DNA of 64,000 bases from Thermococcus gorgonarius (lineage in GTDB: Archaea; Methanobacteriota_B; Thermococci; Thermococcales; Thermococcaceae): contig NZ_CP014855.1 in the NCBI RefSeq assembly GCF_002214385.1, forward strand, positions 620,001 to 684,000, given 5' to 3'. How positions within the stretch are numbered: the stretch's first letter is position 1; every line of letters starts with the position of its first letter. The notes beneath the pieces were generated by a model that saw only the letters and a program-made list of their open reading frames with translations, was not told where the DNA came from and searched no databases. This document shows positions 33,126-50,941 of the stretch, in pieces. The translations under genes and the position numbers were made by a program.

Positions 33126-35165
33126 ATGGTGAACAAAAAGAAAATTGGGGGCATGTTTTTACTTCTTGTTTTTGTGGGATCATTTTGGGGACTCCAGCCG
33201 GTAAGTGCACAGATTTCCCTTCCCAGGGAAGATACAGTCTTCGTAACTGGAGCCCAGTGGAGCCCGGCATCAACGTGGAACCTCTTTTCACCTTCCCAGA
33301 CCTGGGGAACATACACCAGCGGAGGCTTCATGTACCTTCCACTATTCCAGTATATAGCCGGTCTGAACGTCTGGGTGCCAATTATAGGGGAAAGCTTTGA
33401 GCTCGTAAACGAGACCACTCTCATAGTCCACCTGCGCCCTGAGGCCAAGTGGAGTGATGGAGAGCCAATAACCGCGGAGGATGTAGTGTATACTTTCGAG
33501 CTCTCGAAGAAAGTTGGTTCCGGACCCGCGGCCGGTTCTGAGCCTTATATCGGAGACGTTAAGGCAATTGACTCACACACGGTCCAGTTTACAATAGGGC
33601 CTGAGAAGAACCTCCCAATGTTCCTCCTCTATGCGCTCCAGTTTGCTCCCGCTCCGAAGCACATAATCGAACAGGTCTATCAAAAAGTCGGAAACCATAT
33701 CATAGAGTGGAGGAACTGTGGTGGAACCTGTGACGACGTTGTCTCTACCGAAAACGGCGACGTGACCATAAACGTCCCGCAGGTGGTTTCCGGGCCATAT
33801 AAGCTCTACTACTTCGACGAGCTCAGAATTGTTTATGAGAGGATAGACGACTGGTGGGGCAAGGACATCTTTGGCCTTCCGGGCCCAAAATACGTAGTTC
33901 ACAGGATCTACCTGAGCAACGAACAGGCGTTGCTGGACCTCAGACAGGGAAACGTTGACTGGTCAGGCATATTTATCCCCAACGTTGGCAACTTTAAGGA
34001 GATAGGCACGTTCTACAAGGGCAAGCCCTACTTCAGGCCGGGAGCGTTTGTCATGCTTTACTTCAACCACAAGGATCCAATCCTCCAAGATCCCAATTTA
34101 AGAAAAGCTATCGCCTATGCAATAAACTACCAAGAAGTCCTCACAAAAGCGTTCTATGACTACTCCCCACAGCCCTCAATGTCACTGGTGTTTACGGTGT
34201 TCCCCCACTACAGGATGTGGCTCAACACCACACTTGCCCAGGAGTATTGGGGCAACCCTGAGGGGAAGATACCCTATGATCCAGAGCGTGCCAAGCAGAT
34301 TCTTGCTCAGGCGGGATACAAAGATGTCGATGGGGACGGCTTCTTAGAGACCCCAAGCGGTGAGAAGATCGAGCTGAACATAATAGTCCCGACTGGATGG
34401 ACCGACTGGATGATAGCCGCAGACTTGATAGCACACGACCTTCAGAAGATTGGACTAAATGTAGTGGCAAACCCCGTTGACTACGGTGCCTACTGGGGCA
34501 TGATAAACGGCGCCGGATACACCCTTGCCCTGGGCTGGACAAACTCACCGTCATTCTACCACCCGTGGGACACATACAGATACGTCCTTGACCCAAGGCT
34601 CACACCTCCCACCGGAAATTGGGGCTTCTACAACAACTCCAAGGCCTTGGAGCTTCTCGTTGAAGCAGCAAAGGCAGAGTCTTCCGAGGAGCTGATGAAA
34701 TACTACACCGAGATTCAGAAGCTCATATACGAGGATATACCAGCCGTCCCAATTGCCTATTCAGTCCAGTGGTATGCCTACAGCGAAAAATACTGGACCG
34801 GATGGCCAAACGAAGATAACCCCTGGTGGACGGAGGTGGCACCGTACAGGGAGTACTCCCTACCGCTGTGGCTACTCTTTGGACTGAAAAAGAAGGGAGA
34901 GCCCGTTAGCCCGCCGCAGTGGGCAAAGCCCAAGGACGAAGGAGGTATATTGATACCAAACAAGGAAGTCCTCTCCCAGCTCAGCGGAGTTTTCGTGCCT
35001 GAAGTCAACGTAACTGAAACATTCACGACTTCTTCAACATCAGAAACTGAGACTCAACCACAACCACAGGCACCGGCGAGCAGCTCAAGATTCATTGTTG
35101 GAATTTTGGGAATCGTAATAGCCGTTATAGTCATTGTAATCGGGGCCAGGAAGCTGTCTAAGTGA
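33126..35165 (+). CDS. Family 5 extracellular solute-binding protein, probably for beta-gluco-oligosaccharides
   Basis: A 679-residue binding protein. A signal peptide ends near residue 28 (QPVSAQ). The SBP_bac_5 body follows (LRPEAKWSDGEPITAEDVVYTFE near residue 100). A Ser/Thr/Pro/Gln-rich linker leads to a C-terminal membrane anchor (GILGIVIAVIVIVIGA) and a short basic tail, the archaeal way of tethering such proteins. It is the first gene of a five-gene ABC transporter that ends with a beta-glucosidase, matching the layout of the Pyrococcus cellobiose transporter (Cbt). Family 5 also binds peptides; the sugar call rests on the context. Confidence 0.85.
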   Translation: MVNKKKIGGMFLLLVFVGSFWGLQPVSAQISLPREDTVFVTGAQWSPASTWNLFSPSQTWGTYTSGGFMYLPLFQYIAGLNVWVPIIGESFELVNETTLIVHLRPEAKWSDGEPITAEDVVYTFELSKKVGSGPAAGSEPYIGDVKAIDSHTVQFTIGPEKNLPMFLLYALQFAPAPKHIIEQVYQKVGNHIIEWRNCGGTCDDVVSTENGDVTINVPQVVSGPYKLYYFDELRIVYERIDDWWGKDIFGLPGPKYVVHRIYLSNEQALLDLRQGNVDWSGIFIPNVGNFKEIGTFYKGKPYFRPGAFVMLYFNHKDPILQDPNLRKAIAYAINYQEVLTKAFYDYSPQPSMSLVFTVFPHYRMWLNTTLAQEYWGNPEGKIPYDPERAKQILAQAGYKDVDGDGFLETPSGEKIELNIIVPTGWTDWMIAADLIAHDLQKIGLNVVANPVDYGAYWGMINGAGYTLALGWTNSPSFYHPWDTYRYVLDPRLTPPTGNWGFYNNSKALELLVEAAKAESSEELMKYYTEIQKLIYEDIPAVPIAYSVQWYAYSEKYWTGWPNEDNPWWTEVAPYREYSLPLWLLFGLKKKGEPVSPPQWAKPKDEGGILIPNKEVLSQLSGVFVPEVNVTETFTTSSTSETETQPQPQAPASSSRFIVGILGIVIAVIVIVIGARKLSK

Positions 35166-35190: not shown

Positions 35191-36198
35191 ATGCGACCGA
35201 TATACAGATACCTCCTCATTAAACTTTCTTTTTTACTTGCCACTTACTTTGTTGCTGTGACCATAGCATTTGTTCTTCCCAGAATAGCACCGGGCAATCC
35301 AGTGCAGCAAATCATAGCTGGACTTTCCCAGGGTTCGCTCTCTCCAGAGTTGCTGGATCAGTACCAAAGAAGACTTATAGAGGAATTTGGATTAAACAAA
35401 CCCCTCCACGTTCAATATTTTGAATTCCTTAAAAATGCATTCTCAGGAAATCTCGGAACCTCTATCTCCTCTTACAGACAGCCGGTAACAAAACTAATAG
35501 CATGGCATCTTCCATGGACTCTGCTTCTCCTTGTGCCAGCTACTCTGGTTGCATGGACAATAGGAAATTATCTGGGTGCGAGGGCCGCGTACAGAAGAGG
35601 TACCCTCTTCGAGAAGAGCGTTGTCTCAACGGGCATAATACTCTCCCAGATCCCCTACTACTGGATGGCGATGGTGCTCATATACGTCTTTGCAATTAAA
35701 TTAGGCTGGTTCCCTTCCGGTTCTGCATATGATCCCACTTTAGCTCCTTCCCTCAATTGGGAGTTTATAAAAAGCTACCTGCATCACTATATACTCCCAT
35801 TCCTTTCCATAGCCCTGGTTAGCACGGGCGGATGGATAATAGGGATGAGGGTTTTAGCGGCGATGGAGCTTGGGTCAACCTATGTCAAATTCTCCGAAAT
35901 GCTCAATGTACATGACGAGATTATATTTAGATATGTCCTCAGAAACTCCCTACTTCCGCAAGTGACAGGGATAGCTATTCAGCTGGGAACCGTCATGGCC
36001 GGACAGATAATTACAGAGCAGCTTTTCAATTATCAGGGAATGGGCATTTTACTCGCGAGGGCTCTAGGATCTAGGGATTATCCACTAATACAGGGAATAT
36101 TCCTGATTCTCATTGGAACACTGCTCCTTGCCAACTTCATAGTCGAGTTCATTTATGTGCTGATAGACCCGAGAATACGCTTGGGGGCTAGGGAGTGA
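35191..36198 (+). CDS. ABC transporter permease (oligopeptide/oligosaccharide type), first subunit
   Basis: A 335-residue DppB-type permease with six membrane segments. It begins RYLLIKLSFLLATYFVAVTIAF and has ARIAPGNPVQ-like RIAPGNPVQQ and the cytoplasmic loop ending in the EAA-type segment around RNSLLPQVTGIAIQLG. It forms half of the pore for the substrate brought by the binding protein 25 bp upstream. The ATG follows GGTGGTGA. Confidence 0.88.
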   Translation: MRPIYRYLLIKLSFLLATYFVAVTIAFVLPRIAPGNPVQQIIAGLSQGSLSPELLDQYQRRLIEEFGLNKPLHVQYFEFLKNAFSGNLGTSISSYRQPVTKLIAWHLPWTLLLLVPATLVAWTIGNYLGARAAYRRGTLFEKSVVSTGIILSQIPYYWMAMVLIYVFAIKLGWFPSGSAYDPTLAPSLNWEFIKSYLHHYILPFLSIALVSTGGWIIGMRVLAAMELGSTYVKFSEMLNVHDEIIFRYVLRNSLLPQVTGIAIQLGTVMAGQIITEQLFNYQGMGILLARALGSRDYPLIQGIFLILIGTLLLANFIVEFIYVLIDPRIRLGARE

Positions 36199-36207
36199 GG
36201 TGAGAAC

Positions 36208-37056
36208 ATGAACAAGGAAATATTTTATTTGCTCTTTAGGAACAAAAGGTTCGTGATAGGCTTCAGTATACTGGTATTCGAGATATTACTGTCACTGTTC
36301 GGAGCTTACCTGTACCCAATTGACCCCTTTGATCCCGCGGGGCCTCCAGCGTCTCCCCCAAACAGTTACTACCTCCTAGGAACTGACCAATTTGGTAGGG
36401 ACATCCTTGCTCAGGTGGTAGTTGGCATTAGAAATTCCCTTTATGTGGGAGTACTGACTGGAATCTTCTCCATTGCCATAGGCCTTACAATAGGAACAAT
36501 AGCGGGGATAAAGGGCGGACTAATAGATGAAAGCCTGATGGCATTCACCAACGTCGTCCTCACAATACCCAACGTGTTGCTGGCCATTATCATAGCTACC
36601 TACGTGGGTCTTGAAAATGCAGGGCTAACCCTTGTGGCAGTTATAATTTCTTTAACAGCCTGGCCATGGTTTGCAAGGGCAATAAGGGCACAGTTCCTGA
36701 GCCTTAGGGAAAGGGACTTTGTGCATTTCTCCAGGATGACAGGGTACGGAGACCTCAAGATAGCAGTTTTTGACCTGCTCCCCTACGTCACCACGTATAC
36801 CATAGTGGCTTTTGTGAATTTTATGAACATAGGAATAAACGCGGAAGTGGGTTTAAGCATACTGGGACTGACACCAATACACATAATGACCCTCGGAAAA
36901 ATGCTCTACTTCGCTGCAGTGACTCAATCATACTTCCTGGGCCACTGGTGGGTCTTCATACCTCCAGGAATTCTGCTCGTTGCGCTATCAACCTCCCTGC
37001 TTCTGATAGCCACTGGAATAGAGCAGGTGTTCAACCCAAGATTAAGGGAGATGTAA
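36208..37056 (+). CDS. ABC transporter permease (oligopeptide/oligosaccharide type), second subunit
   Basis: A 282-residue DppC-type permease. Marks include LLGTDQFGRDILAQVVVGIRNSLYVG near residue 56 and, in the middle, TGYGDLKIAVFDLLPYVTTY as the ATPase-contacting loop. About five to six membrane segments. GAGGTGAGAAC precedes the ATG 9 bp after the first permease gene. It pairs with that permease to make the membrane channel. Confidence 0.88.
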   Translation: MNKEIFYLLFRNKRFVIGFSILVFEILLSLFGAYLYPIDPFDPAGPPASPPNSYYLLGTDQFGRDILAQVVVGIRNSLYVGVLTGIFSIAIGLTIGTIAGIKGGLIDESLMAFTNVVLTIPNVLLAIIIATYVGLENAGLTLVAVIISLTAWPWFARAIRAQFLSLRERDFVHFSRMTGYGDLKIAVFDLLPYVTTYTIVAFVNFMNIGINAEVGLSILGLTPIHIMTLGKMLYFAAVTQSYFLGHWWVFIPPGILLVALSTSLLLIATGIEQVFNPRLREM

Positions 37057-37066
37057 GGTGATGGCA

Positions 37067-38083
37067 ATGAACAAAAGAATGGTGTTGGAAAATCTAAGGG
37101 CGTACTACCGACAGCTAAAGGGAACCACCGAGTATCTTGTAAAGGCGGTTGATGGCGTTAACCTGGAAATCTATGAGGGCGATATTTTGGGTCTGGTTGG
37201 TGAGAGCGGATGTGGAAAATCCACCCTTGCAAAAACCATGATGATGGACCTTACTCCGCCCCTGCAGTACATGGGAGGAAAACTACAGATTATAAGCAGA
37301 GATGGGGCCGTATTCGACATAACCCAGTTTAAAAGTAAAGACCAGGTCAAGAGAACTTTATGGGGAAAACACATAGCTTATGTTCCCCAGGATGCTTTGA
37401 ACGCCCTTATGCCAACGATAAAAATTAAGAAAATAGCCTATGATGTCCTTAGGTCTAATGAGAGCGGCATTACTTTCCAAGAAGCTGTTAAAAAAGCGAA
37501 AGAAAGGCTAACCGAGCTGGATCTCCCCGATTACGTAACCGAGCTTTATCCCTTCCAGCTAAGCGGAGGAATGAGGCAGAGGGCAGTGCTGGCTATGGCA
37601 ACACTACTGAACCCCGAGATTTTGATAGTGGACGAGCCGACCTCGGCACTTGATGTGACGACACAAAAAATAGTTCTGAAGTCTCTACTCAAGCTGAGGA
37701 AACTTGAACTCGTTGACAGTATAGTTTTCATAACTCACGATATATCCACGGTGAGGCAGATAGCAAACCGCATAGCCGTTATGTACGCTGGAAAAATCGT
37801 AGAGGTCGGGCCAACGGAATCAATCATCAAAGACCCACTTCACCCATACACCAAGGCCCTCATCGAGTCTGTGGCATCAATAGAACCGGAAGGGAGGGAA
37901 AAAGGCATTTCTTACATTCCTGGGCAGCCTCCCAACTTGATAAATCCCCCGACAGGGTGCAGGTTCCATCCAAGATGTCCCTACGCTATGGAGATTTGTA
38001 GAAAAGAGGAACCTGAGTTGGTAAAGATCAATGAAAGCTTGGTTGCATGCTGGCTGTACAAAGGGGGTAGGGAAAATGTCTAA
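37067..38083 (+). CDS. ABC transporter ATPase (DppD type)
   Basis: A 338-residue ATPase. Walker A is GLVGESGCGKST near residue 43, the signature is FQLSGGMRQRAVLAMA near 162, and Walker B is ILIVDEPTSALD near 184. The C-terminal oligopeptide-type extension includes PPTGCRFHPRCPYAMEICRKEEPEL with four cysteines, which in this subfamily can hold an iron-sulfur cluster. The ATG at 37067 has GGTGA 5 nt upstream and is chosen over the GTG at 37058. The next ATPase overlaps it by 8 bp. Confidence 0.9.
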   Translation: MNKRMVLENLRAYYRQLKGTTEYLVKAVDGVNLEIYEGDILGLVGESGCGKSTLAKTMMMDLTPPLQYMGGKLQIISRDGAVFDITQFKSKDQVKRTLWGKHIAYVPQDALNALMPTIKIKKIAYDVLRSNESGITFQEAVKKAKERLTELDLPDYVTELYPFQLSGGMRQRAVLAMATLLNPEILIVDEPTSALDVTTQKIVLKSLLKLRKLELVDSIVFITHDISTVRQIANRIAVMYAGKIVEVGPTESIIKDPLHPYTKALIESVASIEPEGREKGISYIPGQPPNLINPPTGCRFHPRCPYAMEICRKEEPELVKINESLVACWLYKGGRENV

Positions 38084-38894
38084 AGAAATGCTCGTCTGTG
38101 ACCATGTCACCAAAATCTTCACTTCCGGTTTCATAAAAAAGATCGAGGTCAAAGCCGTTGATGACGTATCTTTCACCGTGAGAGAGGGAGAGATAATATC
38201 ACTGATAGGACAGAGCGGTTCGGGAAAAACTACCCTGGGAAAGATTATCCTCAGACTGATACCTCCCACCTCTGGAAGAGTGCTCTTCTACGGTAAAGAC
38301 ATTTGGCGGGACATAAAAACGAAGGAAGAACTTAAAGAATACTGGAGACAGGTGCATGCAGTCTTTCAAAACCCCATGGGAAGTTTCAATGAGTTCTACA
38401 AGGTAGACAGAGTTCTTAACCAGGCCTTGGAGCTTATAGGCGTCGACCCTAAATCAGAAGAGGGGATGCTATTAAAGGAAGAATCCCTAAAGGCAGTGGG
38501 TCTGAACCCCGACGAAATCTTGGGAAAGTATCCCCACCAGCTTTCAGGAGGACAGCTTCAGAGGGTAATGATTGCTAGGAGCTGGATACTGAGACCCAAG
38601 CTCCTGATAGCAGACGAGGCAGTTTCGATGCTCGATGTCTCAACTAGGGGCAAGATAGTGGAAATTTTCAAGGAGCTCAGAAATAAACTGGGAAGCTCCA
38701 TCATTTTTATATCGCATGACATAGGCCTGTCTTACTTCATCTCAGACAGGATTTTCATAATGTACAAGGGGAAAATAATCGAAGAAGGGACTCCTCAGGA
38801 AGTAATTGACAACCCGAAGCATGAGTACACAAAAACCCTGGTGGAGAGTGTTCCGACGATATACAGAAAATGGGAGGACTTTCTGGAGGTATGA
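38076..38894 (+). CDS. ABC transporter ATPase (DppF type)
   Basis: A 272-residue ATPase. Walker A is SLIGQSGSGKTT near residue 46, the signature is HQLSGGQLQRVMIAR near 153, and Walker B is LLIADEAVSMLDVS near 175, where the usual DEPTS reads DEAVS, common in this subgroup. It pairs with the preceding ATPase to power uptake. The ATG at 38076 follows GGGGGTAGGG; the start overlaps the previous stop by 8 bp, a sign of coupled translation. It ends 4 bp before the beta-glucosidase gene. Confidence 0.9.
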   Translation: MSKEMLVCDHVTKIFTSGFIKKIEVKAVDDVSFTVREGEIISLIGQSGSGKTTLGKIILRLIPPTSGRVLFYGKDIWRDIKTKEELKEYWRQVHAVFQNPMGSFNEFYKVDRVLNQALELIGVDPKSEEGMLLKEESLKAVGLNPDEILGKYPHQLSGGQLQRVMIARSWILRPKLLIADEAVSMLDVSTRGKIVEIFKELRNKLGSSIIFISHDIGLSYFISDRIFIMYKGKIIEEGTPQEVIDNPKHEYTKTLVESVPTIYRKWEDFLEV

Positions 38895-38897
38895 AGA

Positions 38898-40361
38898 ATG
38901 TACAAGTTTCCCAGAGATTTTCTTTTTGGATATTCCTGGTCCGGATTCCAGTTCGAGATGGGACTCCCCGGGAGCGAGGTTCCGAACAGCGACTGGTGGG
39001 CATGGGTTCACGACATTGAAAACATAGCGGCAGGCCTCGTTAGTGGAGATCTGCCGGAGAACGGGCCTGCTTACTGGGATCTATATAAGAAAGACCACGA
39101 TATAGCGGAAAGCCTCGGAATGGACGCGATTAGGGGAGGAATAGAGTGGGCGAGAATCTTCCCCAAGCCAACGTTTGACGTGAAAGCCCGCGTTGAGAGG
39201 GATGAAAAGGGCAACATAGTCTCGGTGGAAGTTCCTGAAAGTTCAATTAAGGAACTCGAAAAAATAGCGGACATGAATGCTCTAGAGCACTACCGGGAGA
39301 TCTACGCGGACTGGAAGGAGAGGGGAAAGACTTTCATACTCAACCTCTACCACTGGCCATTACCCCTGTGGCTCCATGATCCTCTTAAGGTAAGAAAACT
39401 CGGACCCGACAGGGCTCCGGCGGGATGGCTTGACGATAAGAGCGTCGTTGAGTTCGCCAAGTTTGCGGCATTCGTTGCGTACCACCTCGACGACCTCGTT
39501 GAGGTCTGGAGCACGATGAACGAGCCAAACGTCGTGTACCAAAACGGCTATACAAGGCCGACTCATGGTTTTCCGCCGGGGTATCTGAGCTTTGAGGCCG
39601 AAAGAAAGGCAAAGATGAACCTCATCCAGGCCCATGCCCGGGCCTACGATGTTATCAAAGAGTACTCTGACAAAGACGTGGGGGTAATATACGCATACAC
39701 ATGGCCCGACCCGCTCAGGGAAGATATTGAGGAAGAAGTGCGGGCGATAAGGGAGAGGGAACTCTACAGCTTCGTTGATGCCGTCCACTTTGGAAAAGCT
39801 GCCGACGTCGAAGAAAGGGACGACCTCAAGGGAAGGGTAGACTGGCTCGGCGTGAACTACTACTCGAGGATTGCCTTTGACATGGTGAACGGCCACGTCC
39901 TCCCGGTGCCGGGTTATGGATTTTCCGGAGAGAGGGGTGGCTACGCCAGATCCGGAAGGCCCTGCAGCGACTTCGGGTGGGAGATTTATCCCGAAGGCCT
40001 TGAACAGCTCCTTAAAGACCTTGCAAAAAGATACGGCCTCCCCATGATGATAACGGAGAACGGCATAGCCGATGCCGCTGACAGGTACCGCCCCCACTAC
40101 CTTGTAAGCCACCTTAAAGCTGTTCACGAGGCCATGAAAGAGGGCGCCGATGTGAGGGGCTACCTCCACTGGTCGCTAACCGATAACTATGAATGGGCCC
40201 AGGGCTTCAGGATGAGGTTTGGGCTCGTATATGTGGATATGGAGACCAAGAAACGCTATTTACGTCCAAGTGCTCTGGTTTTCAGAGAAATAGCGACCAG
40301 AAAAGAGATTCCGGAAGAACTTGAGCACCTTTCCAGCTTAGACTTCCTCGTGAGGAGGTAG
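38898..40361 (+). CDS. celB: GH1 beta-glucosidase, CelB type
   Basis: A 487-residue intracellular GH1 enzyme very like Pyrococcus furiosus CelB (GYSWSGFQFEMGLPGSE at the start). Acid/base is Glu209 in STMNEPN and the nucleophile Glu387 in MITENGIAD. It splits cellobiose and other beta-glucosides, including laminaribiose, to glucose. There is no signal peptide. It is the last gene of the transporter operon (GAGGT just before ATG, 4 bp after the ATPase stop), so uptake and hydrolysis are expressed together. Its 3' end overlaps a convergent small gene by 24 bp. Confidence 0.95.
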   Translation: MYKFPRDFLFGYSWSGFQFEMGLPGSEVPNSDWWAWVHDIENIAAGLVSGDLPENGPAYWDLYKKDHDIAESLGMDAIRGGIEWARIFPKPTFDVKARVERDEKGNIVSVEVPESSIKELEKIADMNALEHYREIYADWKERGKTFILNLYHWPLPLWLHDPLKVRKLGPDRAPAGWLDDKSVVEFAKFAAFVAYHLDDLVEVWSTMNEPNVVYQNGYTRPTHGFPPGYLSFEAERKAKMNLIQAHARAYDVIKEYSDKDVGVIYAYTWPDPLREDIEEEVRAIRERELYSFVDAVHFGKAADVEERDDLKGRVDWLGVNYYSRIAFDMVNGHVLPVPGYGFSGERGGYARSGRPCSDFGWEIYPEGLEQLLKDLAKRYGLPMMITENGIADAADRYRPHYLVSHLKAVHEAMKEGADVRGYLHWSLTDNYEWAQGFRMRFGLVYVDMETKKRYLRPSALVFREIATRKEIPEELEHLSSLDFLVRR

Positions 40362-40763: not shown

Positions 40764-41450
40764 TCAGTAAATTGACCTGAACAGCACTTCCTCCACTAAA
40801 ACGTGCTTTGGAAGCTTCAGCAGTGCCACAAGGAGCTCCGCAACGTCTTCAGGCTTCATAAAGCCTTCCTCTATCTTCCTTCCCGGCCTGCCGTAGAAGT
40901 AGGTGTCCACCATGCCCGGGCGGAGTTCGATAAACTTTACCTCAGGATTTTCCATCTGGAATGTCTTTGTAAAGGCCCTCGCCGCCCACTTGCTCGCCAC
41001 GTAGGCCCCTGCATTGGCCAGTATCATCGTTGAGATGTAGGACGTGACGACCGCCACGGTTCCCCGTCTCTCCTTTAGGCTCGGCAGGAAGAGTTTTATA
41101 GTCCTCCAGACGCCGAGAGCGTTCACCTGGAAGACCCGCTCCATGTCCTCTTCACTCACCTCATCGAGCCTGCCGCCCATTGGTATCCCTGCGTTCGCTA
41201 CGAGAAGGTCAACTCCCCCGAACTCCTCCAAAACTGCTTCAGCGAACTCCTTCAAGCTCTGGGGACTTGAGACATCTAGATAGCGGTAGAGGACTTTAAC
41301 ACCGTGCTTTTCCTCCAGCTCCTTTGAAAGCTCTTCCAAGAGGTCAACACTCCTCGCACCAAGGGCCAAGTTATAGCCCTCCCGTGCAAGTGCTTCCGCA
41401 ATTGCCCTACCAATACCCTTTGAAGCGCCGGTAACGACGGCCACCTTCAT
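40764..41450 (-). CDS. Short-chain dehydrogenase/reductase
   Basis: A 228-residue SDR. The cofactor motif TGASKGIG begins near residue 8, NAG lies near 87, and the catalytic Ser-Tyr-Lys are in VVTSYIST and AYVASKWAA. An Arg and Ser after the second strand (GARSVDL) favour NADP(H). The substrate is unknown; it is the last gene of the beta-glucan run on this strand, 26 bp after the phosphorylase-like gene, so a sugar-derived alcohol or aldehyde is conceivable. The ATG at 41450 follows GGGAGGTGG. Confidence 0.85.
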   Translation of the reverse strand: MKVAVVTGASKGIGRAIAEALAREGYNLALGARSVDLLEELSKELEEKHGVKVLYRYLDVSSPQSLKEFAEAVLEEFGGVDLLVANAGIPMGGRLDEVSEEDMERVFQVNALGVWRTIKLFLPSLKERRGTVAVVTSYISTMILANAGAYVASKWAARAFTKTFQMENPEVKFIELRPGMVDTYFYGRPGRKIEEGFMKPEDVAELLVALLKLPKHVLVEEVLFRSIY

Positions 41451-41475
41451 TTTTCCACCTCCCAAAAATGGAAGA

Positions 41476-44400
41476 TTAACCCGCCGGAAAATAAACGTCT
41501 ATCGAGGCCACCTTTCCGTCCCTGACAGCCCTGGCAAGCTCCCCTTTAACCTTGTTGCCCTCTACCTCAACTTTCCTCCCGTCGTTGAGGTGGAGGAGGA
41601 TTCTGACTTTTCCGAGGTTCAGCTTCCAAGTGTCCACTTTAGCTGGATTGTGGTAGGTAACCCTGCACCTCGAGAACAGATTGAAGCTCACCTTCCTCTC
41701 CTCGTCAAACAGCCAGCCAGGCAGTGCGGGCCTGAAGGAAAGCACGAACTCGCCGTTTTCTGTATCAAATGGCTTCTCCCCTATGAACATGTTCTTCCAG
41801 ATGCTCAGGAACTCCGCATTTGCACCAGTAAGCCGGGCATAGAACCCCGCCCCGTGTAGGGACTCGTCGGGATAGGCGCTGCTGACTATGAAGGATGTGT
41901 TTTCAAGCGGACTCCTTCCGTAAACGGCCGGGTCAAGGAAGGCAACGATGACATTCCGGAAGTCCTCGTAAAACTCCTCGTAAAGTCCACTTCTTATAAG
42001 TTCGAGCATGTATTTGTACTCCATGTGTAGCCAGATGGACTCGTTCTCAAGCCACCCCGGGGTGAAGGCCCTTGCCCTGCCTATCTCTATTGGCTGGTCT
42101 TTCAGGGAAGCGTTGAGCTTGTACATCTTCAACTTTTTGTCATAGAGGTCGCTCTCCTTGACCTTTTTGTAAACCTCCTTCAAAAGTTCCTTGTCATTCC
42201 TGAAGATTTTGAATTGCTTGACGGCACCTTCAAGGAAGAGCGGCATTCTCTTCTGCTCGAACTTCAGAATCCTGGTCTCACCCTTTTCATTGACCTCATA
42301 CTCCACTGGTTCATAGTAGAAGTACATCGGCATTATGCCGTTGTTCTCCTCTATGGCCCTCTCGAGGCCTGCCCTGAGCTTATCGTGGAGGAGCTTCAGA
42401 CCATCGAGGAGTTCTCTGGCTTTAACTTCCACTTCTTTTCCGTCAAAACCAAGCTTTGTCCTGTCCCTGTACCTTTCCCGGAGCTCTGAAAGTGAATCCC
42501 ACAGCCAGTGATCCCTGTCTTCATCCTCCCTGCCCTTGTATTCTTTAACGAGCCTGACTTCCTCCTCAAAGAGCTCCCATACCTCAACGGGGATTCTAAG
42601 TTTAATCTCGGGAAACTCCTCAAGGGAGTCTATTAAAAACTCAAAGAGCCTCACTAACTCTGCAGCCTCTCCTACCGACGAGCCAAAGAGCCCCGGAAGT
42701 CCGTTGAGGGCATCGTACCAGCCCGGCTTCCCCGCTTCCATCTCTATTCCCATTCCAGCCGGATCGAGTGTCGCGAACTTGATGAATGCAAGGTTGAGGA
42801 GCTTGGTGATAAGGTTCGTGCGGTATATCTCTCCCCTTCCGTTCTCCCTCCTCATGAGGTGCCTGTACTCCTTCCGGGACTCAATGAGGGCCTTCTTCTC
42901 TTTGTCCTCGACGAGGGAGTTGTACTGCCTCACCCTGCCGTTTTCGAGCACGTACCTCTTTGACCTCGGGAGCACCACCATGGCGTTGTCGTAGTAGGTG
43001 TAGCTGTAATCCTCAAACAGGAGCTCCCTCTTCTTCTCGGGGTACACTCCAAGGTAGCTCTCTATCAGGTCGAGGTTGTACGTCCAGTGGTCGCACCAGT
43101 AGCCCTCCCCGTGAACCGCATCAACCTCCTCCTCGCAGTGTTCAAGGACTCTGCGGAGGAACTCCTCTTCGGAGACCTTCAGGTCTATTCCCTTCTCCTC
43201 CACGAACATCATCAGTCTTCCGGGGGTGAACGGCTCCTTCAGGAACTCTTCAAGGGGTTCCGGATTGTCCACAAGCTCCTTCAGGAAGTCCATCCTTTCA
43301 GCTTTCATGCGGTATTTCACACCGTTGATCACGAGCGGGTTGTAGCCGTCGGCCTGTATGAGGTTCATGAAGAACTTGACGTCGTAGTCCCTTATCTCGG
43401 GGTGGAAGAAGACGTTCTCCCTCCTGTTCTGGTTAACGTCCCTGAAGTTCCCGTTTCCGGTCGAGTAGTATTCCGGAACGAGCACGAAGTAGTTGTAGTC
43501 CCTCTCCTGGTCGCCGTGCTTTCTCAGGTAGATGTAGTACACAAAGGGATTTTCTTCCTCAAGGAGCAGGGGGTAGCCTCCCCTGAGGACGTTGTCAAGG
43601 TAGCACTGCTTCGAGTACTCGTCAAAGAGCCTGGAAGAGGTTTGCGTCCAGATGTCTTCAACAATCTCCTCTATTATCTCGCTGTTCTCAAGGTACTTCT
43701 TCTCAAGGTACTCTTCGCTGGCGAACTTCTTCTCGTATTCTTCGAGGAGGGCTATGTGTGGAACATAGCCTATAACGGAGTGTATTTTGACCTCCTCACC
43801 GGGCATGAGCTCGGTTTCGAGGGGCGTGAAGGCGGAGGGTATCTTGTTGAAGGTCACCTGCTTTTCACGGACCAGCTCACTCAGGGGTTTCCTGATGAAG
43901 TTCTCAGGGGAGAGTAACGAGCTGTCCGTCCCAAACACTATATCGGGGTCAACTATCGGCCTCACGAGCTCGCTCGTCTCACCCTTCTTCACGAGGGAGA
44001 TGTAGAACGTCCCCTCCGTGAGCTCCGTGACCTTTGGAACGTCCTCCGTTGACGACTTCAGCTTGAAGAAGGGCATCTTTTTGTCGAGGTTGTAGACCTC
44101 CATCCATGCCTTAATGAGCGTGGTCATGTGCTTTATGACGTAGTCGTTGACGCCATAGGGGATTATCATGGGCATTCCGTCAAGGAGCTCAACCTTCTTC
44201 GGGGAGTCAGAGATGTTCCTTATCCTGACCCTCCTGATGAGGGCGGGTATTCTCTCTCCGGGGAGCGTGTAGTAGAGCACGCTGATCCTGAGTCCCAGTT
44301 CTTCGTTTATCTCCTCTATTTCGAGCTCGTTTCTCCCTATGTACATCCTCTGCTTTACCCTTCCCTCCGAGGGAGTGAAGGCCTCATAGGTTACTCCCTC

Positions 44401-44661
44401 ATCCGGGAGCTTGATGAAAGTCCTGAATCCGAGGGTTCTAACCGTCTGGTAGGCCCTTATTGCGGAGTTGAACTCCATTATCGGGTGGTCCTTGTCCTGC
44501 ACGCCGAAGGAGCTCACGCATTGTCCTCTATTCACGTAAAATACCCACATGGGTATGCCTTTCTTCCCCGCTATTCCGGGTAAGAAGCTTGCGAAAGGCC
44601 TTAAGCGGTTGTAGTCCTCGATAACAAACCTGCCCTTTTCATCGAACCTGTACTTTTCCAT
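41476..44661 (-). CDS. GH94-like glycoside phosphorylase, putative beta-glucan phosphorylase
   Basis: A 1061-residue protein with the layout of the GH94/GH149/GH161 phosphorylases: an N-terminal beta-sandwich (to about residue 330), a linker, an (alpha/alpha)6 barrel and a C-terminal beta domain. The candidate acid/base is Asp650 in GKPGWYDALNGLPGLFGSS. No signal peptide, so it acts inside the cell. These enzymes split beta-glucosidic bonds with phosphate, giving glucose 1-phosphate and saving ATP. Length nearer 1100 than 800 residues and the laminarinase gene 41 bp upstream favour a beta-1,3-glucan substrate. The ATG at 44661 has GGGGTGA 5 nt upstream. Confidence 0.75.
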   Translation of the reverse strand: MEKYRFDEKGRFVIEDYNRLRPFASFLPGIAGKKGIPMWVFYVNRGQCVSSFGVQDKDHPIMEFNSAIRAYQTVRTLGFRTFIKLPDEGVTYEAFTPSEGRVKQRMYIGRNELEIEEINEELGLRISVLYYTLPGERIPALIRRVRIRNISDSPKKVELLDGMPMIIPYGVNDYVIKHMTTLIKAWMEVYNLDKKMPFFKLKSSTEDVPKVTELTEGTFYISLVKKGETSELVRPIVDPDIVFGTDSSLLSPENFIRKPLSELVREKQVTFNKIPSAFTPLETELMPGEEVKIHSVIGYVPHIALLEEYEKKFASEEYLEKKYLENSEIIEEIVEDIWTQTSSRLFDEYSKQCYLDNVLRGGYPLLLEEENPFVYYIYLRKHGDQERDYNYFVLVPEYYSTGNGNFRDVNQNRRENVFFHPEIRDYDVKFFMNLIQADGYNPLVINGVKYRMKAERMDFLKELVDNPEPLEEFLKEPFTPGRLMMFVEEKGIDLKVSEEEFLRRVLEHCEEEVDAVHGEGYWCDHWTYNLDLIESYLGVYPEKKRELLFEDYSYTYYDNAMVVLPRSKRYVLENGRVRQYNSLVEDKEKKALIESRKEYRHLMRRENGRGEIYRTNLITKLLNLAFIKFATLDPAGMGIEMEAGKPGWYDALNGLPGLFGSSVGEAAELVRLFEFLIDSLEEFPEIKLRIPVEVWELFEEEVRLVKEYKGREDEDRDHWLWDSLSELRERYRDRTKLGFDGKEVEVKARELLDGLKLLHDKLRAGLERAIEENNGIMPMYFYYEPVEYEVNEKGETRILKFEQKRMPLFLEGAVKQFKIFRNDKELLKEVYKKVKESDLYDKKLKMYKLNASLKDQPIEIGRARAFTPGWLENESIWLHMEYKYMLELIRSGLYEEFYEDFRNVIVAFLDPAVYGRSPLENTSFIVSSAYPDESLHGAGFYARLTGANAEFLSIWKNMFIGEKPFDTENGEFVLSFRPALPGWLFDEERKVSFNLFSRCRVTYHNPAKVDTWKLNLGKVRILLHLNDGRKVEVEGNKVKGELARAVRDGKVASIDVYFPAG

Positions 44662-44702: not shown

Positions 44703-45713
44703 TCAGTCCTCAACGAGCTTATAGACCCTCACGTAGTCAACATACATCCTTGCCGGGAACTTTGTTGTGGCATCAGGCGGTCCCGGCAAGTTGCCTCCAA
44801 CTGCCAGGTTCAGGATTATGTAAAAAGGCTTGTCAAAGACCCACTCCTTGCCCATGGCCTCAACCTGCTCCTTCGTGACCACGTGATAACGTGTACCATC
44901 AACGTACCACTCTATCCTGTCCGGGAACCAGTCAATGGCAAAAACGTGGAATTCTTCCGTGAAGTCCGGAACCCCTTCTGGGAGGGTGTAGCTCTTGGTT
45001 ATACCGCGACTTCCTGAATATCCTGGCCCGTGAACGGTGCCGTGAACGATCCTTGGCTCATGGCCGAGGAACTCCATTATGTCTATTTCACCGCACTGGG
45101 GCCACCCGACTTCCCTTATGTTGCTTCCCAGCATCCAGAATGCCGGCCAGAGCCCCTTGCCCTTCGGTAGCTTCATCCTAGCTTCCACTCTCACGGGTGG
45201 GGAAAATTCTACCTTCCCCTCGGTTTTGAGCCTTGAAGAGGTGTACATGTATGCGCCGTACTCGTCGGTAACCCATTCCTTTCTGGCCTCTATCACGAGT
45301 ATGCCATTTTCTATCCTCGTGTTGTTTGGTGAGTAGTATTCTAGCTCGTTGTTCCCCCATCCGGGGATTCCATACGCTGCTCCGTTCCCTATCTCAAACG
45401 TCCAGTAGTCTTCGTTTACCTTTTCACCGTCAAACTCATCGTGCCATATGAGTTTCCACCTTCTCCCATTCTCCTGGATTTCAGCGGGCACTTGTGCTGT
45501 GGAGGTGGTAGTCGTAGTGGTGGTTGCTTTGCTCGCTGTGGTAGTTTTAGTGATAGTGGTGGAGGTCTGAGTTGTGGAAGTGCCGTTAAGTGTTTGAGTG
45601 GTTGAGGTCCGGGATGAAGAAGGTGTAGTCTGTGTTTCTCCTCCTATGCACCCGCTTATGAAACCGCCAAGCATCACGACCAGAATTAAGAGGCCCAGAA
45701 GTTTTTTGTCCAT
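44703..45713 (-). CDS. lamA: GH16 endo-beta-1,3-glucanase (laminarinase), lipoprotein
   Basis: A 336-residue exported GH16 enzyme. The lipobox is ISGC with Cys22, so it is probably lipid-anchored. A Thr/Ser-rich linker runs to about residue 75, then the beta-jelly-roll domain. The catalytic ExDxxE motif is GEIDIMEFLG (Glu209, Asp211, Glu214). The GNNELEYYSPNN and LWPAFWMLGS stretches are those of Pyrococcus LamA-like laminarinases. It cuts beta-1,3 glucans outside the cell. It starts right after the vapC stop (GGAGGGG just before the ATG), so its expression is tied to the toxin-antitoxin pair. Confidence 0.93.
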   Translation of the reverse strand: MDKKLLGLLILVVMLGGFISGCIGGETQTTPSSSRTSTTQTLNGTSTTQTSTTITKTTTASKATTTTTTTSTAQVPAEIQENGRRWKLIWHDEFDGEKVNEDYWTFEIGNGAAYGIPGWGNNELEYYSPNNTRIENGILVIEARKEWVTDEYGAYMYTSSRLKTEGKVEFSPPVRVEARMKLPKGKGLWPAFWMLGSNIREVGWPQCGEIDIMEFLGHEPRIVHGTVHGPGYSGSRGITKSYTLPEGVPDFTEEFHVFAIDWFPDRIEWYVDGTRYHVVTKEQVEAMGKEWVFDKPFYIILNLAVGGNLPGPPDATTKFPARMYVDYVRVYKLVED

Positions 45714-46205
45714 TTAGATCCCCTCCGAAAGCTGTTTTGAAATCGCCTCAGAGCTATCTTTTGAGAGCCCGAGAGCGACCTGTTCGAGCTCTCCAATAAA
45801 CTTTTCAGTGCTTATCACGTCCAGCCCGTATTTCTTGAGAGGCTTATACTGCTCGGGGCTGTCCGTTATCAGGAGGGCGTTTTTTACTATGGCCGTAACC
45901 CCGACGAGGATGTCGGTGGTGAGCATCTTGGTCCTGCTTTTCAGGAGGTTTTTCGTGATTATTGCGCCCTTGACGATTATCTCGTCATCTAGGGGGACTA
46001 TATGGTAGAGCTCCTTTAACACGGCCATCACATGATCTGGATTTTTCCCCAGAAATACCTTCGTGAAGAGATACTCGTATACACTGATCTGCGGGACGAG
46101 GATTTCAAACCTCATCAGGGCAAGCTCAAGGAGGTCTTTGTTTCTTTTGGTGTGCATACGCAGGAGGGCGGAGCTGTCGAAAATTATTCTTTTGGGCATT
46201 TTCAT
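45714..46205 (-). CDS. PIN-domain toxin (VapC-like)
   Basis: A 163-residue PIN-domain protein. Acidic metal ligands are seen in IIFDSSALL (Asp near residue 9), the EYLF helix near 43, and TTDILVG (Asp near 98) with LITDSPEQ (Asp near 114). PIN toxins are Mg2+ RNases that cut tRNA or rRNA. The antitoxin gene lies 4 bp upstream. GGAGG lies 9 nt before the ATG. The pair sits between two glycoside hydrolase genes with no promoter of its own visible. Confidence 0.82.
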   Translation of the reverse strand: MKMPKRIIFDSSALLRMHTKRNKDLLELALMRFEILVPQISVYEYLFTKVFLGKNPDHVMAVLKELYHIVPLDDEIIVKGAIITKNLLKSRTKMLTTDILVGVTAIVKNALLITDSPEQYKPLKKYGLDVISTEKFIGELEQVALGLSKDSSEAISKQLSEGI

Positions 46206-46209
46206 TACT

Positions 46210-46419
46210 CTATTCCTCCTTTAGCTTTTTCAGGACCTCCAGAGCAAGCTCGCTTTCCTCTTCGTCGAGACTTAGCTCTTTGAGTTTCTTGTCCAAGTTT
46301 GTGGAATGCCAGGTCTCTATCAGGATCTTGAGGACCTCGTCGTATGACCTTGCATCGAGCTTGGCCTTGAGCTTCTTTATCGCGTTCCAGGTCTCCTCAT
46401 CAACGGCTATCGTCTTCAC
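46210..46419 (-). CDS. VapB-like antitoxin
   Basis: A 69-residue protein: MKTIAVDEETWNAIKKLKAKLDARSYDEVLKILIE is a ribbon-helix-helix-like N-terminus, followed by an acidic helical tail that would wrap the PIN toxin. The start is GTG after GGGGTGAGGGG. Its first 20 bases overlap the end of the GH1 gene, so it is translated from the glycosidase mRNA, and vapC follows 4 bp later. Confidence 0.8.
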   Translation of the reverse strand: MKTIAVDEETWNAIKKLKAKLDARSYDEVLKILIETWHSTNLDKKLKELSLDEEESELALEVLKKLKEE

Positions 46420-47923
46420 GGCCCCTCACCCCGAGGTATTCCCTCTTAATCCTCTCGGTTAAGCCGCCGTTTTCAACGATCTCTCTGTAAACCTCCAAGC
46501 TTTCCTTCCTCGGGAGTCTCTCTTTTGTGATCATGTCAACGGAATACAGGCCAAACCTCATCCTAAAGCCCATCGCCCATTCGTAATTATCCGTAAGTGC
46601 CCAGTGGAAGTAACCCCTGACGTCGAAGCCAGACTCGAGAGCCCTCTCTATGTAAGCCACGTGTGAGGCGATGAAATAAGGTCTTAGCAAGTCTTTGGAA
46701 TCGGCGATTCCGTTCTCCATTACATAAACGGGCTTTCCATACTCTGAAGCGGCCTTTATGCTGTTGTATATCCCCTCAGGATACACTTCCCATCCAAGGT
46801 CGCTCACGGGGTACCCATCCTTTGAAAGCTCGTTTGGTGGACAGGAGTACCCATAGCCGGGGACGCCCCTGAACCCCGTTATTGGGATTTCGGGGAACTT
46901 GGGCTCGGAATGAGTGACCACTTCCCTTGAGTAGTAGGTAATCCCTATCCAATCGAGCCTCTTTAGATGAGGCACCTTTATCGTGGTCTCCATGTCGAAC
47001 TCGATGTTGAGGTCACCCCTTGTTAATGCCTGGAGCAAAAGACCGCTGTGGAAGAAATCGGTCATCTGAGCCGCTTTAATGTCCTCAGGGTCATTGGGGT
47101 CCTTTGGATACGAGGTTCCAACGTTGTTGGCAATTATCCCTATGGGTGCTTCTTTCTCAAACTCCCTTATGGCGTCGTAGGCCCTTGCGTGGGCGTTTAT
47201 TATGTTTATGATGGCTTCCTTTGCACGCTGCGGGTTAACAACACCCGGTGGGAACCCCGAGTAGGGGGCAAGATATCCGAGCTCCACCATCACCATCGGT
47301 TCGTTAAAGGTCGCCCAGATGTCCACGAGGTGTCCGAACTTGTACGCGAGGTAGGCCGCAAATTTGGCGAACTCGAGAACAGACCTCTGGCTCACCCACC
47401 CGTTTCTCTCGTTTTGCAGGTTTGTATCGCGGGACTCAATGGGGTCGTGAAGCCATAGGGGGTGGGTGTAGTGGGTAAGGGTCAGGGCGACCTTGAAGCC
47501 GAGCTTCTTCAGGTTCGTGAGGACGTGAGTGTAGTGGTAAACCTCATTTTTGTTTGCTATCTCGTCAAGCTCCCTGAGGGTCTCTTTGGTTATTTTTACC
47601 CTCTTAATGAGCCCGTTGCCGTCGAGCTCGTAGTCAACTTCAACCCCATAGGTGGGACAGGGAAATATTCTACTCCACTCCAGGTTTAGGGAGTAGGCGT
47701 TGAGCCCGAGCTCCTTGGCCAGTGAATGGTCGAGAGGATAAAGTTCGTAGTTGTTGATGCCTTCCTCAGGTAGATCTCCACTTACGAGCTCTTTCTTCAG
47801 GTTAACGGGGTCTCTTACCCAGTGCCACCAATCGCTCCTTGTGTCCAGGTTCCTGTTGAACCTGTCACCCATTTCAAACTGGAAGCCCGATTGCGAAACT
47901 CCCCAGAGGAACTCTTTTTTCAT
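46400..47923 (-). CDS. GH1 beta-glycosidase, BmnA-like
   Basis: A 507-residue intracellular GH1 enzyme resembling Pyrococcus furiosus BmnA (WGVSQSGFQFEMGD start, then TRSDWWHWVRDP). Acid/base is Glu208 in ATFNEPM and the nucleophile Glu403 in YVMENGIAD. Substrate may be beta-mannosides or beta-glucosides; sequence alone does not settle it. The C-terminus overlaps the vapB start by 20 bp, and the gene begins 2 bp after the GH-A lipoprotein stop, so all are one operon. GAGGGTT precedes the ATG. Confidence 0.9.
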   Translation of the reverse strand: MKKEFLWGVSQSGFQFEMGDRFNRNLDTRSDWWHWVRDPVNLKKELVSGDLPEEGINNYELYPLDHSLAKELGLNAYSLNLEWSRIFPCPTYGVEVDYELDGNGLIKRVKITKETLRELDEIANKNEVYHYTHVLTNLKKLGFKVALTLTHYTHPLWLHDPIESRDTNLQNERNGWVSQRSVLEFAKFAAYLAYKFGHLVDIWATFNEPMVMVELGYLAPYSGFPPGVVNPQRAKEAIINIINAHARAYDAIREFEKEAPIGIIANNVGTSYPKDPNDPEDIKAAQMTDFFHSGLLLQALTRGDLNIEFDMETTIKVPHLKRLDWIGITYYSREVVTHSEPKFPEIPITGFRGVPGYGYSCPPNELSKDGYPVSDLGWEVYPEGIYNSIKAASEYGKPVYVMENGIADSKDLLRPYFIASHVAYIERALESGFDVRGYFHWALTDNYEWAMGFRMRFGLYSVDMITKERLPRKESLEVYREIVENGGLTERIKREYLGVRGREDDSR

Positions 47924-47925
47924 TT

Positions 47926-49425
47926 CTAACCCTCCTCATAACCCTTCATGTGTATCTCTTCAATGTTTCTATTCAGCTCGCTGAACATCCTGACCATTTC
48001 CTCGTAGGGCTCATCCTCAATGTTTACGAGGCCGTAGTTGCTGTTTTCCCCGTCCCATCTTCCCTCTTTGGGCTCATCAGACCATTTGAACCAGTGATAT
48101 CCAACGGCATACGGAAGTTTCATAAAACTCTCTATGAAGCGCTTTGTGTATTCGGCCCTTTCTTTTTGAGTCTGAACGGTGATTCCTGCCCCAACAGTAT
48201 TGGGAAGCCCAGAATCCATCGCCCTGAACGAGAACTCGGTTATCATTATAGGTTTCCCCGTAATTTCATGTATGTGGTCCAAGTACTCCTTCGGTGCCAC
48301 TTGGAAGTTATAGAGATTCAGTGAGATAACATCAACGTACTTTCCGGCGACTTCAAAGACAACCTCGGGTGGCCTGATGAAAGGAGAAACCGCAAACCTC
48401 ACCCCAAGTATTAGGTGGTTTTGATCCACCTTCCTTATGGCAGTTGTTGTCACATTAAAATACCGCTCAGCGTATCTCCTCAAAAACTCCTTTCTTGCTT
48501 CCATAAACAGGGGTGTTGATGGGAGGTCACCGGTATAGGTAAGCAGGTCATCAAAAGATTCATAGCTTGTCTTGAGCTCCTCGTTAACCCGGGTAATGCT
48601 CCCATTAAAGGTCTCTTTCAAAACTTCCACTGCCACTCTCTTTCCGGGGGCCTCAGGGGGTAACTTCATGAAATCATCCAAGAGGTGATTGCCCGATCTC
48701 CAGTCCGGCCCCCAGCGAAGTTCGTTGTCTGTAAAGAAGCCGATTATCATGGGGTTGTCCTTCAACGGTTCAACATTGAAGTACACTGCTTTCCTCACGT
48801 ACTCCTCAAAATCATCCTTGAAAATGTCGGGCATGGTGCCGTGTTCCCAGTTAAACCCATATTTTGCCCCTATATCCAGAAGAACGGTATACGGGAAATA
48901 TTCGTACAGTTCCGGAGAAGACCAGCTCCCCACAGTATTGAAACCCCACTCAACCATCCTATTAACTGTGACATTGATCCACAGGCTTACATCCCCATAC
49001 TTTCTCAGTACATTGGCATAATATGGGGAATAACCTAACTTGGGAGAGTGATCGCCCAAATAATTTATGGCATTTACCCCCTTAGAGACAAAAAGGTAGC
49101 CTTCCGGATCAACAAGCCAGTATGTCCCGTTCACCACTTCAACCCTAAAAAATCCTGACGATTCAACCCGCACCTTTTTCCATCCCCCAAAATCAGAATA
49201 TTCCCCAGGAAAATTCGCTTTAGGTTTGGGGGAGTTGGTCACGGCAGGTTCGGTGGGGGAGGATGAATTAATACTCTCGCTAGAAGAACTAGTTGTGGTG
49301 GGCTGGGCGTAAGAGGACGAACCCATACCCTCATTCCCTGTCTGTGCGTTGTTTCCAATACATCCCAAGATCATAGTGGAAGCAAGTACTAAACCAAGAA
49401 TCTTGAGGAATGACGTACTCTTCAT
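47926..49425 (-). CDS. Clan GH-A glycoside hydrolase lipoprotein (agarase-like)
   Basis: A 499-residue exported lipoprotein. The lipobox is ILGC (Cys22), followed by a Ser/Thr/Pro linker to about residue 70. The catalytic domain starts with YWLVDPEGYLFVSKGVNAI, a phrase common in agarase-like (GH50/GH42-neighbour) enzymes. The acid/base is probably Glu235 in FFTDNELRWG and the nucleophile Glu397 in IMITEFSF, the spacing of clan GH-A TIM barrels. The family is not certain; context suggests a beta-glucan. A 28-bp inverted repeat covers its start. It is the first gene of the run that includes GH1, VapBC, LamA and the phosphorylase. Confidence 0.75.
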   Translation of the reverse strand: MKSTSFLKILGLVLASTMILGCIGNNAQTGNEGMGSSSYAQPTTTSSSSESINSSSPTEPAVTNSPKPKANFPGEYSDFGGWKKVRVESSGFFRVEVVNGTYWLVDPEGYLFVSKGVNAINYLGDHSPKLGYSPYYANVLRKYGDVSLWINVTVNRMVEWGFNTVGSWSSPELYEYFPYTVLLDIGAKYGFNWEHGTMPDIFKDDFEEYVRKAVYFNVEPLKDNPMIIGFFTDNELRWGPDWRSGNHLLDDFMKLPPEAPGKRVAVEVLKETFNGSITRVNEELKTSYESFDDLLTYTGDLPSTPLFMEARKEFLRRYAERYFNVTTTAIRKVDQNHLILGVRFAVSPFIRPPEVVFEVAGKYVDVISLNLYNFQVAPKEYLDHIHEITGKPIMITEFSFRAMDSGLPNTVGAGITVQTQKERAEYTKRFIESFMKLPYAVGYHWFKWSDEPKEGRWDGENSNYGLVNIEDEPYEEMVRMFSELNRNIEEIHMKGYEEG

Positions 49426-49480: not shown

Positions 49481-50725
49481 TCAACGCCTCTTTCTTAGGA
49501 GGAGTGGAACTACTGCCAGGCTGATTATGGTTGCTGGGCCGCAGAGTCCTCCACCGCTGGTGGTTTCGGTCTTGGTTTCTGTTTTTGTTTCAGTTTTAGT
49601 CACCGTCTCAGTCTTGGTTTCAGTCTCAGTCTTCGTCGTAGTACGAGTAACAGTCTCAGTAGTAGTCTTAGTCACCGTCTCAGTCTCCTTCACCAACACA
49701 TACTTAGTCACAGTCTTAGTACCCTCACACGAAGACGTAGTCGTGTTTGTTGGGGTAGTCGTAGTGGGAGGTGCCAGGAGCTCGGAGACCTCCTCGGGGG
49801 ACAGGACCCTTGCATCGTGGAGTATCCAGCCGTAGTTGAAGGCTGTGCCTTCGCTTCCGCTGTAAGAGCCTATGGATATTGAAGTCCACTGCTGGTTCTC
49901 AACGGGTATGCCGAAGAAGTCAGAGAGCTGCTCGATAACCTTGTCGATCATGGGCTTTATGTCAATTATGACGTCTCCGGAAGCTGGAAGCTGCTCCTGC
50001 GGCATGAAGAGAAGGACTCCCCATCCTCCTCCGGACAGGGCTCTCTGGATCGTGAAGTTCATATCTTTCATTTCTCCGTTCAAGATCACTGTGGAGGTAA
50101 CTTCTCCCACCACTGTGTAGTCACCAACTATTCCTCCAAAGTCGTCGAAGAACGGGATGTAGATTTCCCCTATAGGTGCTCCCGAACTGCTGTCTTCAAA
50201 CCAGATGTTTATACCGTATCTTACAAGGGTGTCATCTCTTCTGGCTACATCGTATTTCGCTTTCACCCATATGCTGTCGTACGTTGACACGTCGGAAGCC
50301 GGAAGCGGCAACTGGAGATATGAATATCCTCCAACTGGTGGTTTGTCTCCCCACCACTGGGCCGGGGCCCTTCCGTCGATGATAACCTCTGGCGTTGCCC
50401 AGGCTATTCCGCCCCACTGCGTGCTTACATTGCTTAGGTCAACGTAGAAGGCAACTTCTTCCGTGCTTTTGATGAACCTCATGAAAACTTCTCCCTGGCC
50501 ACCAACTATGTTCCAGAAGTTGGTCTGCATCCAGATGGTTCTTCCATCACTAAGCTGGATGGCGCTGTCAAGGAACTGGTCCCACCAAGTAAACTGAATA
50601 TCGCCCTCTTGAGGTTCAGCTGCTGCGATTTCTCGTATTTCCTCTAAGGTCATTGCTGAAACAAACCCCAAAAACACTAACGACATAACAAAAACGCTTA
50701 CGGCTTTTGTCGCCCATCTGGCCAT
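49481..50725 (-). CDS. GH12-family endoglucanase with CGP-CTERM anchor signal
   Basis: A 414-residue secreted protein. The signal peptide ends near residue 24 (GFVSA). The middle resembles the GH12 endoglucanase EglA of Pyrococcus furiosus (WMQTNFWNIVGGQGE, then WATPEVIIDGRAPAQWWGDKP). A Thr/Glu/Lys-rich stalk (KTETETKTE...) leads to a C-terminal SGGGLCGPATIISLAVVPLLL plus basic tail, the CGP-CTERM signal found in Thermococcaceae surface proteins. It would cut beta-1,4 glucans at the cell surface. The ATG at 50725 has GGTGA 5 nt upstream; two TATA boxes lie at about 50757 and 50777 on this strand. Confidence 0.85.
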   Translation of the reverse strand: MARWATKAVSVFVMSLVFLGFVSAMTLEEIREIAAAEPQEGDIQFTWWDQFLDSAIQLSDGRTIWMQTNFWNIVGGQGEVFMRFIKSTEEVAFYVDLSNVSTQWGGIAWATPEVIIDGRAPAQWWGDKPPVGGYSYLQLPLPASDVSTYDSIWVKAKYDVARRDDTLVRYGINIWFEDSSSGAPIGEIYIPFFDDFGGIVGDYTVVGEVTSTVILNGEMKDMNFTIQRALSGGGWGVLLFMPQEQLPASGDVIIDIKPMIDKVIEQLSDFFGIPVENQQWTSISIGSYSGSEGTAFNYGWILHDARVLSPEEVSELLAPPTTTTPTNTTTSSCEGTKTVTKYVLVKETETVTKTTTETVTRTTTKTETETKTETVTKTETKTETKTETTSGGGLCGPATIISLAVVPLLLRKRR

Positions 50726-50941
50726 GGAAATCACCAATTTGGAATTGCAGAACAATTCTATATAAGCCTTTCGCCTTTTATATAGCCCGCTTAAGATTAT
50801 AAAACATGACGATAAATATAACATCCCCACAATTAGGGCATTGAGACTTCTCTGCAGGAGGGGTATAAATGGATCTATCTCGCCGTGAAGAGCGTGAAGA
50901 GTGAGGCTTCCGGAAGAAAAAGGTGAAGATAGAGAGTTGGC
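50726..50941. other. Intergenic region upstream of the endoglucanase gene
   Basis: It holds two minus-strand TATA boxes, GCTTATATAG and CTATATAAAAGG (about 50757-50786), for the endoglucanase gene. On the plus strand a GGAGG site is followed by an 11-codon frame (50869-50904, MDLSRREEREE) that looks like a gene remnant or chance. Confidence 0.45.

Follow-up and report, generated by a model that had tools for sequence, protein, structure and literature searches.

A predicted GH161 beta-1,3-glucan phosphorylase in a laminarin operon of the archaeon Thermococcus gorgonarius

Introduction

Laminarin use by Pyrococcus furiosus (LamA, CelB) is known as a hydrolytic route, and we know of no GH161 enzyme in that species. 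The locus described here shares with it a laminarinase of the same type as structure 2vy0.

A phosphorolytic route is offered by glycoside hydrolase family GH161. Published GH161 enzymes phosphorolyze beta-1,3-glucooligosaccharides of DP at least 3, and not laminaribiose or cellotriose; a conserved catalytic Asp and a phosphate-recognizing His are features of the family (PMC6484121). PapP from Paenibacillus polymyxa and TaCDP from the thermophile Thermosipho africanus both phosphorolyze laminaritriose and not cellotriose, and TaCDP does not act on laminaribiose (PMC6484121). Archaeal members have been predicted from the genomes of curdlan-grown HArc strains; they occur with a beta-1,3-glucanase and a beta-glucosidase (PMC9726719).

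The protein examined here resembles bacterial GH161 enzymes (PapP; 9gy9, 9h8v, 9qqk) in its catalytic and phosphate-site residues and in its clustering with an ABC transporter and GH1 or GH16 genes, and the solved chains match it in full-length sequence and fold. Unlike these solved enzymes, to which it is 43–44% identical, it is archaeal and presumably hyperthermophilic; TaCDP likewise differs in having a bacterial host. The haloarchaeal proteins, named from the genome, belong to halophiles and have GH81 in place of GH16 (PMC9726719). The GH161 family, its thermophilic bacterial member TaCDP, and predicted haloarchaeal members are already known. What is new is a predicted hyperthermophilic archaeal GH161 within a laminarin operon. 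A preliminary description of the locus had regarded any hyperthermophilic member as novel, which holds for the archaeal protein in its laminarin operon but must be set against the thermophilic bacterial enzyme already characterized.

Gene Locus and Neighborhood

The window analyzed was a stretch of 64,000 nucleotides from the T. gorgonarius genome, which consists of one contig of 1,674,122 bases. An open reading frame was confirmed on the minus strand at 41476–44661, encoding 1061 amino acids from an ATG at 44661. An alternative GTG start upstream would give 1064 amino acids; the ATG, preceded by GGGGTGA, is the preferred start. Residue numbers in the shorter form equal those in the longer form minus 3 (Asp650 = Asp653). 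The plus-strand frame over the same interval is interrupted by stops. Full-length homologs, three intact orthologs from the same genus, and dN/dS values of 0.12, 0.10, and 0.09 against three orthologs, indicating purifying selection, show that the reading frame is not a chance one. The N terminus was examined and has no evident signal peptide, in agreement with an intracellular location. The preliminary description had the coordinates, the length, and the 41 bp spacing to the laminarinase gene right, though it gave no strand; its placement of the protein inside the cell is consistent with the N terminus, and its naming of the neighbor as a laminarinase was borne out by a match to endo-beta-1,3-glucanase 2vy0. 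The features of the locus are as follows:

33126..35165, plus strand: solute-binding protein of a dipeptide/oligosaccharide-type ABC importer (best match 2o7i)
35191..38894, plus strand: two permeases and two ATPases of the same importer (from sequence, by inspection)
38898..40361, plus strand: second GH1 beta-glycosidase
40764..41465, minus strand (likely start 41450): short-chain dehydrogenase (SDR), downstream of GH161
41476..44661, minus strand: predicted GH161 beta-1,3-glucan phosphorylase, 1061 aa (PDB match, residues, fold)
44703..45713, minus strand: GH16 endo-beta-1,3-glucanase (laminarinase, LamA type), 2vy0-like at 487 bits; predicted lipoprotein (lipobox SGC, by inspection)
45714..46205, minus strand: PIN-like domain protein, below the Pfam cut-off, position conserved
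46400..47923, minus strand: GH1 beta-glycosidase of archaeal BgaS type, which likely cleaves laminaribiose
47926..49425, minus strand: GH50-agarase-like glycoside hydrolase, secreted
49481..50830, minus strand: GH12-like endoglucanase, secreted, with a CGP-CTERM anchor

Read 5' to 3', the minus-strand operon runs GH12-like, GH50-like, GH1, PIN-like, GH16 laminarinase, GH161, SDR, and it diverges from the plus-strand block of ABC transporter and GH1 genes. Three further genomes of the genus (four with this one) share the minus-strand order, and in two of these three loci (L086, L087) the stretch covered also contains transporter genes that diverge from the operon. Among 61 genomes of the genus, GH161, laminarinase, and GH50-like genes have an identical distribution, all three being confined to the same 4. 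Their linkage is strong; given inheritance as one block, the four occurrences do not count as independent events.

Several neighbors are of interest in their own right. The GH50-like gene (47926–49425, minus strand) encodes a secreted lipoprotein in a hyperthermophilic archaeon that resembles beta-agarases (4bq2, which we take to be GH50; E 2e-54). In each of the four same-genus loci, the PIN-like gene (45714–46205, minus strand) has GH1 on one side and laminarinase on the other; it is diverging fast, being 35% identical in L086. The GH12-like gene (49481–50830, minus strand) is seemingly duplicated side by side in L085 (3–1544 and 1639–2883). The SDR (40764–41465, minus strand) is near the solved alcohol dehydrogenase 3l77/3tn7; it follows GH161 in 4/4 same-genus loci, and the Staphylothermus MAG L001 has part of it in that place too.

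The secreted GH12-like and GH50-like enzymes suggest that the cluster may serve more than beta-1,3-glucan. They could also point to a GH161-fold phosphorylase with another natural substrate, either mixed-linkage beta-1,3/1,4-glucan oligosaccharides or cellodextrins, and TaCDP was itself initially described as a cellodextrin phosphorylase (PMC6484121). We consider this unlikely: on re-assay TaCDP acted on laminaritriose and not on cellotriose (PMC6484121), the GH161 structure 9qqk contains a bound beta-1,3-glucooligosaccharide, and the laminarinase is both the immediate neighbor and identical in genome distribution. Still less probable is an enzyme running mainly in the synthetic direction, building beta-1,3-glucan from glucose 1-phosphate for storage or matrix. 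The reaction is reversible, and TaCDP forms insoluble beta-1,3-glucan from glucose 1-phosphate (PMC6484121), but the close neighbors of clear function are all degradative or import genes.

Family Assignment

Because Pfam searches placed the protein in no family, it was assigned from PDB sequences, fold, and residue mapping. Using phmmer against PDB sequences, the GH161 chains 9h8v and 9qqk/9sr2 matched residues 14–1059 at ~931 bits (931.7 and 930.6 bits for the top full-length matches), compared with 47 bits for GH149 (6hq6) and 10 bits for GH94 (6ggy). The cut-off of the NCBIfam GH149 model, an equivalog, is 1150 bits, and the protein scored 107, which rules out a GH149 identity. GH94 was ruled out by the Pfam GH94 catalytic domain, which had no match in the protein or anywhere in the whole genome; the Thermotoga maritima genome, used as a control, gave a match.

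An AlphaFold model built with 54 aligned sequences had a mean pLDDT of 91.7 and a pTM of 0.92. Foldseek ranked two GH161 structures, 9gy9 and 9qqk, first and second (TM 0.92–0.93, E down to 5e-102), and the fold alignment gave the identity to the solved bacterial enzymes stated above. Similarity was far lower for GH149 (TMq 0.75) and GH94 (TMq 0.68). That the protein is a phosphorylase of GH94 or GH149, able to cleave the disaccharide as well, is hardly credible against these scores, the family part of this reading being already refuted, even granting the weak NCBIfam match to GH149 and a clan-level similarity to GH94.

Taken on sequence and model, the protein is a clear member of GH161, and of neither GH94 nor GH149. 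It combines full-length similarity, the phosphorylase fold of clan GH-Q, the conserved Asp and His, and a genomic context of ABC transporter with beta-glucosidase or laminarinase that is common in GH161 and not defining. The preliminary description had proposed a GH149/GH161-type beta-1,3-glucan phosphorylase, and the profile, sequence-to-structure, and fold comparisons support this, specifically as GH161. Its term "GH94-like" stands at the level of the clan and fails below it, where no Pfam GH94 match was found and profile-profile identity to GH94 is 20%.

Active-Site Residues

The 54-sequence alignment (1064 numbering) shows no variation at Asp653, His882, Arg410, Asp411, Gln414, Arg865, Glu875, and Gly949, and either Ser or Thr at position 948. 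For comparison, GH94 enzymes from tandem GH161-GH94 loci of relatives were aligned as a profile (Pfam GH94 for the one from L004). In this alignment, Asp653 fell on GH94 D530 of the ADWND motif, His882 on H744, Thr948-Gly949 on T801-G802, and Arg410-Asp411-Gln414 on R378-D379-Q382, positions which we take to be the general acid and the phosphate site of GH94. The Asp and the phosphate-site His and Arg thus align with GH94, and Asp650 indeed lies within GWYDALNGLPG, as had been noted earlier. The predicted functional residues, in 1061 numbering with 1064 numbering in brackets, are as follows:

Asp650 (653): general acid
His879 (882): phosphate site
Thr945-Gly946 (948-949): phosphate site

The histidine of the HGAGF motif (939) was considered as a phosphate ligand and rejected, as it is His in just 41 of 54 sequences. 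His882 was preferred because it is invariant and aligned with the GH94 histidine.

Relatives and Phylogeny

Outside the genus, the nearest GH161 sequences are from Thermoproteota (73–76%), namely a Staphylothermus MAG, a Thermoprotei MAG, and one single-contig genome. Thermobrachium and Caloramator follow at 60–62%, and further relatives, at 40–46%, are mostly gut Clostridia, many with GH94 in tandem. In a quick maximum-likelihood tree, the archaeal sequences formed one group (SH-aLRT 100), sister to the thermophilic Clostridia Caloramator and Thermobrachium (grouping support 100). Thermoproteota sequences were nested among those of Thermococcus (inner support 88–100), which suggests transfer between archaeal phyla; with its midpoint root, and with Thermotogae, Paenibacillus, and haloarchaea absent, the tree gives no direction of transfer.

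GH161 is rare in Thermoproteota, with 4 strong carriers among 398 sampled genomes, and in one of the four (G329) the gene looks decayed. In L102 (8240–8620), a Thermoproteota copy is interrupted near residues 72–98 by an in-frame stop together with a frame change. This copy is apparently decayed, and that of the related genome L101 is intact. Programmed frameshifting was considered for two archaeal relatives and rejected, since L102 has a stop plus a frame change, like a decayed gene, and the break in L103 falls at an NN gap.

Proposed Pathway

We hold it very probable that the gene encodes a cytosolic, inverting GH161 beta-1,3-glucan phosphorylase that converts imported laminari-oligosaccharides into glucose 1-phosphate and laminaribiose and leaves the last step of degradation to GH1. 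Family membership and residue conservation come from the comparisons above, and the activity, linkage, chain-length limit, and flux would be those expected of the family. The membrane-anchored GH16 laminarinase would cut laminarin outside the cell, and the adjacent ABC importer would take up the resulting laminari-oligosaccharides. With inorganic phosphate, and with Asp650 as general acid, GH161 would then split off glucose at the non-reducing end in the form of alpha-glucose 1-phosphate. It would act on chains of DP at least 3 and halt at laminaribiose, which a GH1 enzyme would hydrolyze. Laminaribiose and cellobiose, both suggested earlier as substrates, are probably not used, because characterized GH161 enzymes need DP of at least 3 and beta-1,3 linkages (PMC6484121).

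A phosphoglucomutase-type enzyme would convert glucose 1-phosphate to glucose 6-phosphate, bypassing ADP-dependent glucokinase. PGM/PMM-family genes are present in the genome, one of them near an ADP-kinase gene, as are two ADP_PFK_GK genes. Because of the latter, the energy saved would be the ADP spent by ADP-dependent glucokinase. The earlier suggestion that phosphorolysis saves ATP is therefore right in that there is a saving, though ATP is not saved directly.

Discussion

GH161 genes are easily mistaken for cellobiose phosphorylase genes, and the solved GH161 chain 9h8v bears such a name. For Pyrodictium delaneyi, a claim of growth was founded on a gene called "cellobiose phosphorylase" (PMC5556600), and it may merit a recheck. 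A literature search of limited journal coverage found no assayed archaeal GH161.

We lean slightly toward a broader reading, in which a distinct hyperthermophilic archaeal branch of GH161 would make phosphorolytic use of laminarin possible in Thermococcus and Desulfurococcales-type archaea and carry glucose 1-phosphate past ADP-dependent glucokinase. This branch may have entered the archaea once, from thermophilic Clostridia, and later moved between the two archaeal phyla. We know of no earlier hyperthermophilic archaeal beta-1,3-glucan phosphorylase, and if active, the T. gorgonarius enzyme would be the first. It would also give Thermococcales a phosphorolytic alternative to the hydrolytic laminarin route and provide a heat-stable catalyst for beta-1,3-glucan synthesis.
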